Positions 1,650 to 6,800 of a stretch of DNA of 64,000 bases are shown here, piece by piece. The stretch's first letter is position 1. Each line of letters opens with the position of its first letter. Under the pieces are notes generated by a model. It was not told where the DNA came from. It made no database searches and was given only the letters and a program-made list of their open reading frames with translations. This DNA comes from Natrinema amylolyticum. GTDB taxonomy: Archaea; Halobacteriota; Halobacteria; Halobacteriales; Natrialbaceae. The position numbers were made by a program, and so were the translations under genes. The stretch spans positions 186,001 through 250,000 of the forward strand of contig NZ_JAIWPJ010000003.1 of assembly GCF_020515625.1 (NCBI RefSeq), given 5' to 3'.

Positions 1650-3440
1650 TCAGTTCTCGAACCGCGCCTGAACGAACGGCTGGACGTCGTCGATATCGCT
1701 CAGTCGGGAGTCGCTCAGTAACACGGCCTCCGTCTCTTCGAGTGGAACGGAGAGACTGATCTCCTTGGTCCGGCCGTACCGTCCCTTCGAGACGACGACG
1801 GCGTTGACGATCCCGAGCATGTCGAGTTCGCTGATGAGATCCGTCACGCGCCGCTGGGTCAACACGTCCGCGTCGATCTCCTCGCAGAGGCGCTTGTAGA
1901 TGTTGAACACCTCGCCCGTGTTGATGCTATGAACGCCGTTTTTCTCGAGCAGGATGATCGCGAAGAGGACGAGTTTGCTCTGGGTGGGCAGCGTGCGGAC
2001 GACCTCGACGACGCGATCGAGTTCGATCTTGTCCTGGGCCTGTCGCACGTGTTCCTCGACGATCGTCTCGGCCTGGGACCGTTCGGCCAGTTCGCCCGCG
2101 GTCCGCAGGAGATCCAGCGCGCGCCGCGCGTCACCGTGTTCCTGTGCGGCGAACGCCGCACACAGCGGGATCACGTCGTCGGAGAGTGCGTTCCCCTTGA
2201 ACGCGACCTCCGAGCGGTGTTTGAGGATGTCCCGGAGCTGATTCGCGTCGTAGGGCGGGAAGACGATCTCCTCTTCGCCCAGCGAGGACTTGACCCGCGG
2301 ATCGAGGAAATCGGTGAACTTCAGGTCGTTCGAGATGCCGATGATCGACACTCGCGAGTTCTCGAGTTCGGAGTTCATCCGCGAGAGGTTGTAGAGCGTG
2401 TCGTCGCCGCTCTTCTCGACGAGCTTGTCGATCTCGTCTAACATGATGACGACGACCCGCTCGTCGTAATCGACGGCGTCGAAGAAGACGCTGTAGACCC
2501 GATCCGTCGGCCAACCCGTCATCGGGACCTCCTCGAACGAGTCCTTGTCGTCCTCGAGAGCCGTGATCCGGTCGTCGACCTCGGCCCGGGTCTCGAAGGG
2601 CGTCGACTCGAGGGGGTGGTCCGGCGGGAGCGCGGTCGAATCGGTCGCGGCGTCGTCGCGACCGGCTCCGGTGTCGTCGACGTTCGCCGGCCCGTTTTCC
2701 GCTCCGGACGACCGCGAGTCGGCGGGATCCGCCGATCCGTCTGAAGACCCCCCTGCTTCGAGTGGAGAATCGCCCGACATGGCGTCGGTATCGGTTCCAG
2801 TCGAAATGTCTGTGTCCGACTCCGTCTCCTCGCTCGAGACGAAATCGAAGGGGTCCGTTGCCGTCTGATCGTTCGCGCCATCGCCCGACTCAGTCACGTC
2901 GGCGCTGTGACGCGCAGCATCGGCATCGTACTCGTCGAGGTCGTCCAGCAGCGACTCGAGTTCCGCGACGCGGTCGTCGATCCTCGCTTTGTTTTTTTCG
3001 ATGAACTTATTCGCGAGCTGTGCGAGCACGCGGTACTGGGTGTCGGTGACCTCGCAGTTGATGTACTCGACGTCGCACGGGACGGAGTACTTCTGGGAGG
3101 TGCTCTCGAGTTCCTTGCTGACGAACTTGGCGCTCGCGGTCTTGCCGGTCCCGGTTTTCCCGTAGATGAGAATGTTCGACGGCGTTTCGCCGCGGAGCGC
3201 GGCGACGAGGATCGTCGCCATCTTATTGATCTGATCGCTCCGATGGGGAAGTTCGTGTGGCGTATAGGACGGGCGGAGGACCTCCTTGTTCTCGAAGATC
3301 GGTTCGCCACTGAGCAAGTCGTCGAACAGTCCCTGATTCGACTCGTCGTCGCCGAGGTCGGCGTTCTCGAAATCCGTCGAGAATCCGCTCGTTCCCTCGA
3401 CCTCGTCCGAACCAGTGATCTCTGAGTTATCGTCTGACAT
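1650..3440 (-). CDS. orc1: Orc1/Cdc6 replication initiator
   Basis: This AAA+ origin-binding ATPase recognises ORBs and starts replication. It is 596 residues long, well above the 400 or so of minimal archaeal Orc1/Cdc6. Visible parts are an acidic N-terminus, Walker A GKTGTGKT at residues 94-101, Walker B MLDEID near 335-340, a sensor-1-like IGISND, and a C-terminal winged-helix region (residues about 500-590). The extra length is an acidic Ser/Asp/Thr-rich insert of roughly 120 residues (about 170-290) between Walker A and Walker B. The ATG at 3440 lies only 13 bp from an ORB-like site, which overlaps the place where the TATA box should be. The gene reads away from the origin and opposite to oapABC. 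Confidence 0.95.
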   Translation of the reverse strand: MSDDNSEITGSDEVEGTSGFSTDFENADLGDDESNQGLFDDLLSGEPIFENKEVLRPSYTPHELPHRSDQINKMATILVAALRGETPSNILIYGKTGTGKTASAKFVSKELESTSQKYSVPCDVEYINCEVTDTQYRVLAQLANKFIEKNKARIDDRVAELESLLDDLDEYDADAARHSADVTESGDGANDQTATDPFDFVSSEETESDTDISTGTDTDAMSGDSPLEAGGSSDGSADPADSRSSGAENGPANVDDTGAGRDDAATDSTALPPDHPLESTPFETRAEVDDRITALEDDKDSFEEVPMTGWPTDRVYSVFFDAVDYDERVVVIMLDEIDKLVEKSGDDTLYNLSRMNSELENSRVSIIGISNDLKFTDFLDPRVKSSLGEEEIVFPPYDANQLRDILKHRSEVAFKGNALSDDVIPLCAAFAAQEHGDARRALDLLRTAGELAERSQAETIVEEHVRQAQDKIELDRVVEVVRTLPTQSKLVLFAIILLEKNGVHSINTGEVFNIYKRLCEEIDADVLTQRRVTDLISELDMLGIVNAVVVSKGRYGRTKEISLSVPLEETEAVLLSDSRLSDIDDVQPFVQARFEN

Positions 3441-3453
3441 CCGTCGTACAGCA

Positions 3454-3474
3454 CCCCCTTATTTCGAGTGGAAC
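3454..3474 (-). promoter_or_regulatory. ORB overlapping the orc1 promoter
   Basis: On the minus strand this reads GTTCCACTCGAAATAAGGGG plus one more G. That matches the TCCACTCGAAA core and G-run of the ORB at 4363-4390. It ends 13 bp before the orc1 start codon, and its AAATAA part is where a leaderless transcript would need its TATA box. Binding of Orc1 here would therefore compete with TBP/TFB. Confidence 0.7.
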
Positions 3475-4028: not shown

Positions 4029-4049
4029 CCCCTTCGTTTCGGGTGGAAC
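4029..4049 (-). promoter_or_regulatory. Origin recognition box, left arm, with long G-run
   Basis: The minus strand reads GTTCCACCCGAAACGAAGGG plus G and then continues into TGGGGGGGG. It agrees with the ORB at 4363-4390 through CGAAACGAAGGGGTGGGG. The extended G-run is the halophile-specific G-string known from haloarchaeal ORBs. It is inverted relative to the right-arm ORBs. Confidence 0.85.
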
Positions 4050-4132
4050 GAGCGAAAAGGGTGGGTGGGGGTTCGACGGCGATTTATCACGAGAAGATTT
4101 ATCTGGATGGAGTAGAAACAATAACCGTAGAA

Positions 4133-4239
4133 CTAGCAGAACAGCTAGTCTTACTAGAGCTAGGATAACCTTTACTAGTACCTACTAGAATTAGTCCTTG
4201 GAGGCATCTATCTTACTAGATAGGATTCTGAGTTACTAG
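4133..4239. repeat. Cluster of eight CTAG sites in the AT-rich unwinding element
   Basis: CTAG occurs at 4133, 4145, 4154, 4160, 4175, 4185, 4216 and 4236. Three of these are in the identical octamer TTACTAGA (4151, 4213, 4233), and others are close variants. CTAG is otherwise rare in the window: by eye about a dozen occurrences in the remaining 63 kb. The cluster lies between the left-arm ORB (4029) and right-arm ORB (4287), exactly where unwinding is expected. Confidence 0.9.
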
Positions 4240-4362: not shown

Positions 4363-4390
4363 ATCTCCACTCGAAACGAAGGGGTGGGGG
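4363..4390 (+). promoter_or_regulatory. Origin recognition box, right arm, with G-run
   Basis: This is the best ORB in the window: TCTCCACTCGAAACGAAGGG then GTGGGGG. It mirrors the inverted ORB at 4029-4049, so the AT-rich CTAG-rich segment is flanked by two strong ORBs pointing outward. Confidence 0.88.
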
Positions 4391-4749: not shown

Positions 4750-5388
4750 ATGGGACTGTTCACAGAACTCAAAGATAGTATCTCCCGGGCTACGGACCGC
4801 CTGTTTTCGGCACAGGAGCCCAAACGAATCGGTATTTACGGTCCGCCGAATGCCGGCAAAACGACGCTCGCGAACCGTATCGCGCGTGACTGGACTGGTG
4901 ACGCGGTCGGTGCGGAGAGCCACGTCCCGCACGAGACACGTCGCGCACGTAGGAAAGAAAACGTCGAGATCGAACGCGACGGCAAAACGGTGACCATCGA
5001 CATCGTCGACACGCCGGGTGTGACGACGAAGGTCGACTACGAGGAGTTCACCGACGAGATGGACGAAGAGGACGCGATTCGCCGCTCCCGCGAGGCGACC
5101 GAAGGCGTCGCCGAAGCGATGCACTGGCTGCGAGAGGACGTCGACGGCGTCATCTACGTTCTGGATAGCGCAGAGGATCCGATCACGCAGGTCAACACGA
5201 TGCTGATCGGTATCGTCGAGTCGCGCGATCTCCCCGTTCTGATCTTCGCGAACAAAACTGACCTCGAGGAGTCGAGCGTCAAGCGGATCGAGGACGCCTT
5301 CCCGCAACATAAGACCATTCCCCTGTCCGCGAAGGAGGGCGACAACATGGACGAAGTGTACGACAACATCGCAGAGTACTTCGGGTGA
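4750..5388 (+). CDS. oapA: Origin-associated GTP-binding protein OapA
   Basis: This is an Era/Der-like small GTPase of 212 residues, encoded next to the origin in haloarchaea. G1 GPPNAGKTT lies at residues 31-39, G3 is DTPGV, G4 is NKTD in FANKTDLEE, and G5 is the SAKEG near the C-terminus. All nucleotide-binding motifs are intact. The start at 4750 is chosen because a GGAGG precedes it and because the 19 upstream codons are rich in Cys/Arg and not haloarchaeal in composition. It heads the row oapA-oapB-oapC, six bases before oapB. Family knowledge links the three genes to the main origin; the molecular role is not established. Confidence 0.92.
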   Translation: MGLFTELKDSISRATDRLFSAQEPKRIGIYGPPNAGKTTLANRIARDWTGDAVGAESHVPHETRRARRKENVEIERDGKTVTIDIVDTPGVTTKVDYEEFTDEMDEEDAIRRSREATEGVAEAMHWLREDVDGVIYVLDSAEDPITQVNTMLIGIVESRDLPVLIFANKTDLEESSVKRIEDAFPQHKTIPLSAKEGDNMDEVYDNIAEYFG

Positions 5389-5394
5389 TTACCG

Positions 5395-5796
5395 ATGCCA
5401 AAAGCAACTAACGCGGACGACTCGGACGCACCCGACGGCGTGCAGATCGACCTGATCAGCGGCGAACGCATGGACGGCATGGCGACGATGGAGAAGATCA
5501 GGATGATCTTGGACGGCGTCCACGACGGCAACATCGTCATCCTGGAGGAGGGACTGACGCCCGACGAGGAGAGCCGGCTCATCGAGGTGACGATGGCTGA
5601 GATCAGTCCCGACGAGTTCAACGGGATCGAGATCGAGACCTATCCCAAGTCCGAGACCCGCGACTCGTCGTTGCTCGGTCGCATCATGGGAGGTGACGAG
5701 ACGGAAGCGAAGCTGACGGTGATCGGACCGGCGAACCAGATCGAGACGCTCCACAAGGACGAAACGCTCATCAGCGCGCTCGTGTCCCGTAACTAA
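5395..5796 (+). CDS. oapB: Origin-associated protein OapB (DUF2073)
   Basis: This 133-residue protein of the DUF2073 family lies between oapA and oapC. It has no membrane segment and no cysteine. Conserved-looking blocks are GVQIDLISGERMDGM, a central ILEEGLTPDEESRLIE, and a C-terminal AKLTVIGPANQIETLHKD. The stop codon overlaps the ATG of oapC by one base (TAATG), so translation is coupled. Its role is not known in detail; its position in the origin cluster is conserved across haloarchaea. Confidence 0.92.
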   Translation: MPKATNADDSDAPDGVQIDLISGERMDGMATMEKIRMILDGVHDGNIVILEEGLTPDEESRLIEVTMAEISPDEFNGIEIETYPKSETRDSSLLGRIMGGDETEAKLTVIGPANQIETLHKDETLISALVSRN

Positions 5797-6800
5797 TGCC
5801 ACATCAGTGTACGAACTGTGGCCGAACGTTCGCTGACGGCTCCAAAGAGATGCTGTCGGGGTGTCCGGACTGCGGCGGGAACAAGTTCCAGTTCGCACCG
5901 ACCACGACGGCCGCAGCCGAATCGTCCGGCGGAACCGAGACGGACGGCTCGAGGGGGGCCGATACGGCGAGCGCCTCGGCGGACGCTTCCTCGCCCGAAT
6001 CGGACAGCGTCGCGACGCGCGCTGCGGAAACGGTTCGCGGCTGGGTGTCCGCTGGGTCCGCCAACGAACCGGATGCGGAGTCCGCTGAGCGGCCGGCGTC
6101 GAACGGATCGACGGCAGCCACGGGATCGGACGGCTCCTGGCCCTCGAGTGACGATACCGGCAGTAGCGATTCGAACCCGCCGTCGGACGGCGAGTTCGAC
6201 GAGTGGCCCGAGACGGCACGTCGGCCCGAGGACCGGTCCGGATCGCCAGCCGAGGCGGCCGACGGGTCGTCGACGGAGACGGCCACTGACGAGCGGACTT
6301 CATCTCGGGACCCGTCGGATCGACCATCGAGCAGCCCGTCGACGACCGCTACGATGGCGGACGACGAAAATTCGGCGCAGGCCGACGCCCGCAGCGAAGT
6401 CGTCCCCTCGGCCGATCTCCCGTCACACTCCGAGAGTCCGGACGGAGACGGCTCGAGGCCCGACAGCGATGCAGGCAATGTCGTCGGTCCGCAGGGCGAA
6501 GCTGAGACCGGGGCCGGATCAGAAACGGATGTTGGAGTCGGCTCTGACGCCGATGACCAGCCTCCGGAACACGGTCGCGTCGTCAGCGAGCCCAGCGGGG
6601 AACGCCCGTCGATCGAGGATCTCCGGGCGGAGCTCAACGAACAGTTCGAGAGCATCAAGATCGTCCGACCGGGACAGTACGAACTCAACCTGATGGAGCT
6701 CTACAACCGGGACGAGTACATCATCTCCCTGCAGGAAGACGGACGGTACGTCATCGACGTGCCGGACTCGTGGCACGACGGCGATGAGGACGACGACTGA
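5796..6800 (+). CDS. oapC: Origin-associated protein OapC (zinc ribbon)
   Basis: The protein has 334 residues in three parts. The N-terminal zinc ribbon (residues 1-35) has CTNCG and CPDCGG pairs. A long Ser/Asp/Glu-rich low-complexity region (about 45-265) is probably disordered. The C-terminal block (about 268-328) contains RPSIEDLRAELNEQFESI and VRPGQYELNLMELYNRDE, which is the conserved domain. The gene overlaps oapB by one base. Zinc ribbon plus conserved C-terminus fits the OapC family. DNA or nucleoprotein binding is an inference from the ribbon and the location. Confidence 0.9.
   Translation: MPHQCTNCGRTFADGSKEMLSGCPDCGGNKFQFAPTTTAAAESSGGTETDGSRGADTASASADASSPESDSVATRAAETVRGWVSAGSANEPDAESAERPASNGSTAATGSDGSWPSSDDTGSSDSNPPSDGEFDEWPETARRPEDRSGSPAEAADGSSTETATDERTSSRDPSDRPSSSPSTTATMADDENSAQADARSEVVPSADLPSHSESPDGDGSRPDSDAGNVVGPQGEAETGAGSETDVGVGSDADDQPPEHGRVVSEPSGERPSIEDLRAELNEQFESIKIVRPGQYELNLMELYNRDEYIISLQEDGRYVIDVPDSWHDGDEDDD

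Follow-up and report, generated by a model that had tools for sequence, protein, structure and literature searches.

A helically phased CTAG array in the predicted oriC1 of Natrinema amylolyticum is conserved in most Natrialbaceae, with a possible link to orphan m4C methylation

Introduction

Clusters of CTAG have been described in haloarchaea before. Blow et al. (2016) reported such clusters at orc1/cdc6 genes together with an orphan m4C methyltransferase, and proposed a role in replication (PMC4752239, Fig 6D; what we say of this paper refers to the accessible portions of its text). The idea of a CTAG cluster at the replication origin, which an earlier note on the DNA studied here had put forward, is therefore a rediscovery. 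The locus described here resembles those of Blow et al. in motif, class, gene neighbourhood and enzyme family; the accessible portions of their paper give density in 500-bp windows, and contain no ORB position, TTACTAGA repeats, phasing or family arrangements (PMC4752239). In Haloferax volcanii, Ouellette et al. (2018) found CTAG enrichment only at oriC2, and a deletion strain had no growth defect (PMC5867850). The function of the widespread CTAG methylation in haloarchaea has been stated to be unknown (PMC6606915). The oriC1 of Haloarcula hispanica, which is likewise adjacent to orc1, AT-rich between inverted ORBs and provided with inner G-rich repeats, has been dissected with respect to its ORBs and G-rich repeats, and CTAG is unmentioned in that study (PMC3936714).

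Two origins from outside the haloarchaea offer further comparisons. In the Dam/SeqA system of Escherichia coli, as here, the palindromic target of an orphan methyltransferase is concentrated in the origin. In vitro, SeqA requires its paired GATC sites to be in phase, two to three 10.4-bp turns apart, a spacing close to that in Natrialbaceae, although the GATC sites of E. coli oriC themselves are not phased by integral turns (PMC5145175). The two cases differ in that the modification is m6A at GATC in E. coli but m4C at CTAG here, and in that GATC is common whereas CTAG is rare genome-wide. We know of no SeqA counterpart or reader protein for CTAG. In Sulfolobus, the unwinding element has a conserved motif, ucm, which is distinct from the ORBs and is bound by UBP; this is a single 11-bp motif of other sequence, and reports of ubp are confined to Sulfolobales and Desulfurococcales (PMC12141716).

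Results

The window that we analysed is a stretch of 64,000 nucleotides from Natrinema amylolyticum (contig NZ_JAIWPJ010000003.1, positions 186,001 to 250,000), and its left end carries, in this order, orc1, a 1.3-kb intergenic region, and oapA, oapB and oapC. The orc1/cdc6 initiator gene (1650-3440, minus strand, 596 aa) matches NCBIfam NF001625, ORC1-type DNA replication protein, with 652 bits against a cut-off of 501. On the plus strand, oapA (4750-5388), named by its position ahead of oapB and oapC, encodes the Era-like GTPase adjoining oriC1 (TIGR00231 small_GTP, PF01926), and is followed by oapB (5395-5796; PF09846, Origin-associated protein OapB, E 9e-43) and oapC (5796-6800; PF09845, Origin-associated protein OapC, E 3e-29). 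Together, orc1 and oapABC are the usual neighbourhood of haloarchaeal oriC1 (PMC3528665). An outer ORB-like element adjoins the orc1 start (3454-3474, minus strand; 3 mismatches to the haloarchaeal ORB), and two inner ORBs follow, the left one at 4029-4049 (minus strand; 1 mismatch, G-string directed outward) and the right one, inverted with respect to it, at 4364-4384 (plus strand; 2 mismatches). With orc1/cdc6 adjacent to oapABC, and with inverted ORBs bearing G-strings around AT-rich, unstable DNA, the locus is, as judged from its sequence, oriC1, the predicted main replication origin of N. amylolyticum. The GTPase is 100% identical in the nearest named relatives, N. gari and N. altunense; the N. 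amylolyticum genome (G000) comprises 4.71 Mb. In many Halorubrum-like genomes (g27; loci L131-L150 and L244-L277), orc1 and the ORB pair lie several to ∼13 kb from oapA.

Between the inner ORBs, eight CTAG sites occupy 107 bp of the DNA unwinding element (4133-4239). Six of these sites are referred to below as phased, and are found at 4133-4136 (site 0), 4154-4157 (+21, in TTACTAGA), 4175-4178 (+42, in TTACTAGT), 4185-4188 (+52, in CTACTAGA), 4216-4219 (+83, in TTACTAGA) and 4236-4239 (+103, in TTACTAGA). Of the two extra, off-phase sites, the one at 4145-4148 is not conserved and the one at 4160-4163 is rare in relatives. The earlier note had counted these eight sites exactly, and the identical octamer TTACTAGA does occur three times in the block (at 4151, 4213 and 4233), although it has only 12 copies in the 4.71 Mb of the genome. 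Likewise, the placement that the note had given to the block, between the strongest ORBs and in the unwinding element, is borne out, as the inner ORBs are the best ORBs on either side and no other 107-bp stretch in the region is as unstable as the block.

The density of CTAG in the block is exceptional both for the region and for the genome. The general avoidance of CTAG that had been noted is evident in the window, which holds 23 sites compared to 90.4 +/- 7.5 in dinucleotide shuffles; 15 of these lie outside the block, close to the estimate by eye of about a dozen. When the intergenic region was shuffled 5000 times, its densest 107 bp had a mean of 2.0 and a maximum of 5 CTAGs, compared to the observed 8. 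In pattern searches of the whole genome, CTAG runs within 72 bp reach eight sites only at oriC1 and four or fewer at all other places, and no equally dense cluster is thus present elsewhere. Three of the 10 CTAG cluster loci (oriC1 on C3, C4:269691 and C5:36241) precede an orc/cdc6 gene; Blow et al. likewise found clusters at several orc genes within a single genome (PMC4752239). The four-site runs at G000:C4:269691-269710 (L096, L239) and G000:C5:36241-36264 (L098, L234) are upstream of two other orc/cdc6 paralogues, by ∼310-400 and 640 bp, and have no helical phasing. Another four-site run (G000:C7:121942-121978, L003) is upstream of a sugar-nucleotide epimerase-like gene, with no orc gene near.

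We compared this origin with 80 named loci and ∼140 oriC1 loci out of a class sample of 242 genomes, whose family codes we take to stand for Natrialbaceae (f1), Haloarculaceae-like (f3) and Haloferacaceae-like (f4) genomes, with g27 as a Halorubrum-like genus. The enrichment at the oriC1 of relatives, which the earlier note had proposed to look for, is present at the orthologous place in several families. The mean number of CTAGs between the inner ORBs is 6.2 in Natrialbaceae (2.0 in shuffles), 5.0 in f3 (1.5 in shuffles) and 2.6 in other named genera (0.9 in shuffles), but in f4 it is 1.3 for genomes with the methyltransferase described below (0.7 in shuffles) and 0.39 for genomes without it (0.56 in shuffles). 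The gap has ∼3 times the expected number of sites in most enzyme-positive families, and 0.7 times that number in genomes that lack the enzyme. When all 256 tetramers are ranked by over-representation between the ORBs, CTAG comes first in Natrialbaceae, f3, f2 and the other named genera, and 171st, and thus not enriched, in methyltransferase-less genomes; because homologous sites are not independent, this ranking characterizes families and does not amount to 160 separate tests.

If the sites had no function, CTAGs would simply be tolerated in non-coding, AT-rich DNA and preserved by shared ancestry. Indeed, CTAG is less scarce in non-coding DNA, and the sites are homologous within families. However, the density in Natrialbaceae is 21/kb between the ORBs, but falls to 1.3/kb over the remainder of that intergenic region (and to 0.30/kb beyond it), the counts in the gap are ∼3-fold above shuffles in several families, and the cores have been retained while the spacers strongly diverged. 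We therefore consider the lack of any function to be the least probable of the explanations that we weighed. It is also very unlikely that the array is a purely structural unwinding motif, in which CTAG kinks or melts easily with no part for methylation or a specific protein. The block is less stable than any other DNA in the region, as such a motif would be, but CTAG alone is enriched: TTAG, CTAA, TTAA and GTAC show no enrichment in the gap between the ORBs, and have 0.25-0.44 of their expectation in Natrialbaceae (a deficit that in part follows arithmetically from the excess of CTAG). The alternative raised in the earlier note, an unwinding motif dependent on CTAG steps, is thus weakened, since TTAG, CTAA and TTAA share the same TA step and many haloarchaeal oriC1s are nearly CTAG-free; in the Haloferacaceae-like genomes, the gap is equally rich in AT and has ∼0-2 CTAGs. 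Nor is there an excess of GATC between the ORBs of Natrialbaceae (82 observed versus 74 expected). A swap to GATC and Dam in genomes that lack the CTAG enzyme was considered and rejected, as their oriC1s have 22 GATC sites compared to 21 expected.

The flanks and the arrangement of the CTAG sites are specific to families, with phased TTACTAGA in Natrialbaceae, TTTTCTAGTGTCTAG-N6-CTAGCTAG in genus g30 and CTAGTTCTAG in genus g26. Because the families differ in this manner, the feature that they share is the methyltransferase target itself. The arrangement in g30 (L281-L291) is conserved and is located in the right half of the unwinding element.

Beside the array is an element of much wider distribution, TTTAT-N13-AAACAATAACCGTA (4098-4129, plus strand), which is promoter-like. 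In 145 of 163 origins, whether or not the methyltransferase is present, TTTAT and AACANTANCCGTA are located ∼66 bp from the left ORB, and this class-wide element probably represents the older portion of the unwinding element. It may be promoter-like in function or an archaeal unwinding-element motif, and it is apparently undescribed; comparison by eye with the published oligonucleotide gave no clear resemblance to Sulfolobus ucm. Because this TATA-like element adjoins the array, a promoter role for the region is possible, in which TTTAT/AACANTANCCGTA would fire through the unwinding element and methylation would tune transcription that activates the origin or competes with it. In agreement with this idea, the BRE/TATA-like element keeps its distance from the left ORB throughout the class, CTAGs recur around it (∼32 bp before and 14-17 bp after the element in enzyme-positive families), and CTAG is enriched within the 75 bp that precede transcription starts in Haloferax lucertense (PMC11001535). 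Nevertheless, we think a methylation-sensitive promoter improbable: the element is followed by no ORF, the region has no match to a known RNA in Rfam, and most of the CTAGs are downstream of the predicted start and spread over 100 bp.

In Natrialbaceae, the sites are spaced by near-integral turns of the helix. Counted from a conserved CTAGCA anchor, they are at 0, 20/21, 42, 52, 83 and 103/104 bp, and the successive spacings equal 1.97, 2.07, 0.96, 2.98 and 1.97 turns of 10.4 bp (∼2, 2, 1, 3 and 2). The phasing fit is 0.97 at 10.35 bp and was equalled by 3 of 20 000 random six-site sets, in a test that left the period free between 9.8 and 11.2 bp, is post hoc and concerns one lineage event. 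Site 0 is conserved in the family, and among 39 anchored Natrialbaceae origins site +21 is present in 39, +42 in 38, +52 in 39, +83 in 35 and +103 in 17. Site +52 is always 10 bp past the previous site (38 of 38 origins), and +83 follows at 31 bp in 34 of 35. This spacing is kept even though identity between species is 0.36 in the spacers, compared to 0.93 in the 8-bp core; the right ORB lies at a variable distance of 116 to 170 bp from site +83. Of the 61 Natrialbaceae genomes, 44 have the exact triple +42/+52/+83, in nearly every case as one copy located at oriC1; of 181 genomes outside the family, 4 have it, two of them also at oriC1. The array, with its conserved cores and spacing, is therefore a property of most Natrialbaceae.

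As a rule for the whole class, phasing had to be rejected, since other families keep the density with conserved but different, unphased arrangements, and some Natronococcus also have a conserved but different arrangement without phasing. Spacing by integral turns, as for SeqA in vitro, is thus found in most Natrialbaceae and not in other families. We found no description of CTAG phasing at oriC1 in the literature that we searched, and the position between the ORBs, the regular spacing of 1-3 turns and the family-specific arrangements look new, as apparent additions to published work. In four Natrialbaceae genomes (G058, G083, G084 and G212), the phased triple is 40-370 kb from oapA, which suggests a displaced oriC1. 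In the oriC1 of Natrinema limicola (L025), several array sites have TTAG in place of CTAG; the methyltransferase is present across the genus.

The main rival to a role in methylation is an iteron-like array, in which the TTACTAGA repeats bind a sequence-specific origin protein that bends or opens the unwinding element and methylation is incidental; the binder might be a paralogue of Orc1, a nucleoid protein comparable to UBP of Sulfolobus, or another factor. The six phased sites are mostly direct repeats of TTACTAGA in most Natrialbaceae, and several of them share TTACTAG(A), a single orientation and one helical phase, as expected for iterons. Moreover, the TTA before and the A after CTAG are conserved at ∼0.9 or more at several sites, the spacing is kept despite the divergence of the spacers, and the Sulfolobus unwinding element holds one short, essential, protein-bound motif (PMC12141716). 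On the other hand, a single recognition motif would not account for the density of CTAG with other flanks and spacings in other families, and the repeats are absent in methyltransferase-less genomes despite a conserved oriC1. We regard iteron-like binding as possible, but as less likely than methylation-sensitive use of the sites.

The presence of an orphan CTAG-type methyltransferase gene, proposed earlier, holds for this genome, which encodes a 351-aa PF01555 protein of the m4C type with a TSPPY motif; no restriction gene was found beside it. We infer that this protein is specific for CTAG from its distribution and from the Natrinema methylomes, in which 97-98.7% of CTAG is m4C-modified in N. 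versiforme and N. pallidum (PMC6696651). Both of these species have the array. Orthologues occur in 206 of the 242 genomes, similar to the published frequencies of the CTAG orphan enzyme (78% in PMC4752239; 174/217 in PMC6471742). Three features of the clusters of Blow et al. are found here: enrichment in non-coding DNA at orc1/cdc6, an orphan enzyme gene and conservation in relatives.

The distribution of the enzyme is difficult to separate from descent. All 36 genomes without it (20 listed as lacking it and 16 deduced by elimination) belong to f4; losses fall within this one family only, in which dense arrays are never seen. We saw no dense array in any lineage without the enzyme. The enzyme is not sufficient for a cluster, as six enzyme-positive Halorubrum-like (g27) genomes have 0, 0, 0, 1, 0 and 0 sites; other enzyme-positive Haloferacaceae-like genomes have a mean of 1-2. 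After phylogenetic correction there was no association of enzyme and cluster (contrasts, r = -0.12), in a comparison that has four independent pairs and no power. The link between enzyme and cluster is confounded with phylogeny.

Discussion

We tentatively favour, with somewhat less than even confidence, the view that the array is a selected set of targets of the haloarchaeal orphan CTAG m4C methyltransferase (zim/HVO_0794 type), which would act as a methylation-sensitive platform read on one face of the helix. In this model, the CTAG sites in the unwinding element would be methylated, and those of the array would become transiently hemimethylated after the departure of the fork. A protein that senses this state, or the methyltransferase itself, might then bind neighbouring sites on one helix face, and such binding would delay or license melting and the loading of Orc1 and MCM. 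Two observations from Haloferax speak against this model. H. volcanii grows normally without its RM genes (PMC5867850), although this species is also viable without origins, and in H. lucertense low-GC regions tend to remain unmethylated (PMC11001535).

The proposed mechanism follows the same logic by which Dam and SeqA act at the E. coli origin, but its components are unrelated to theirs. By this analogy, the phased m4C array of Natrialbaceae oriC1 and a putative hemimethylation sensor could be an independently evolved archaeal counterpart of Dam/SeqA, which we think unlikely on present grounds but worth stating.

The phased array, conserved and located in the unwinding element of the universal haloarchaeal origin, offers specific bases as targets for mutation, in a genus that has origin-based vectors and for which methylomes have been published. 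Of equal use is the caution that the published correlation of enzyme and cluster is not independent of phylogeny. If the origin is gated by methylation, the array would bear on how archaea prevent or time the re-initiation of their origins.
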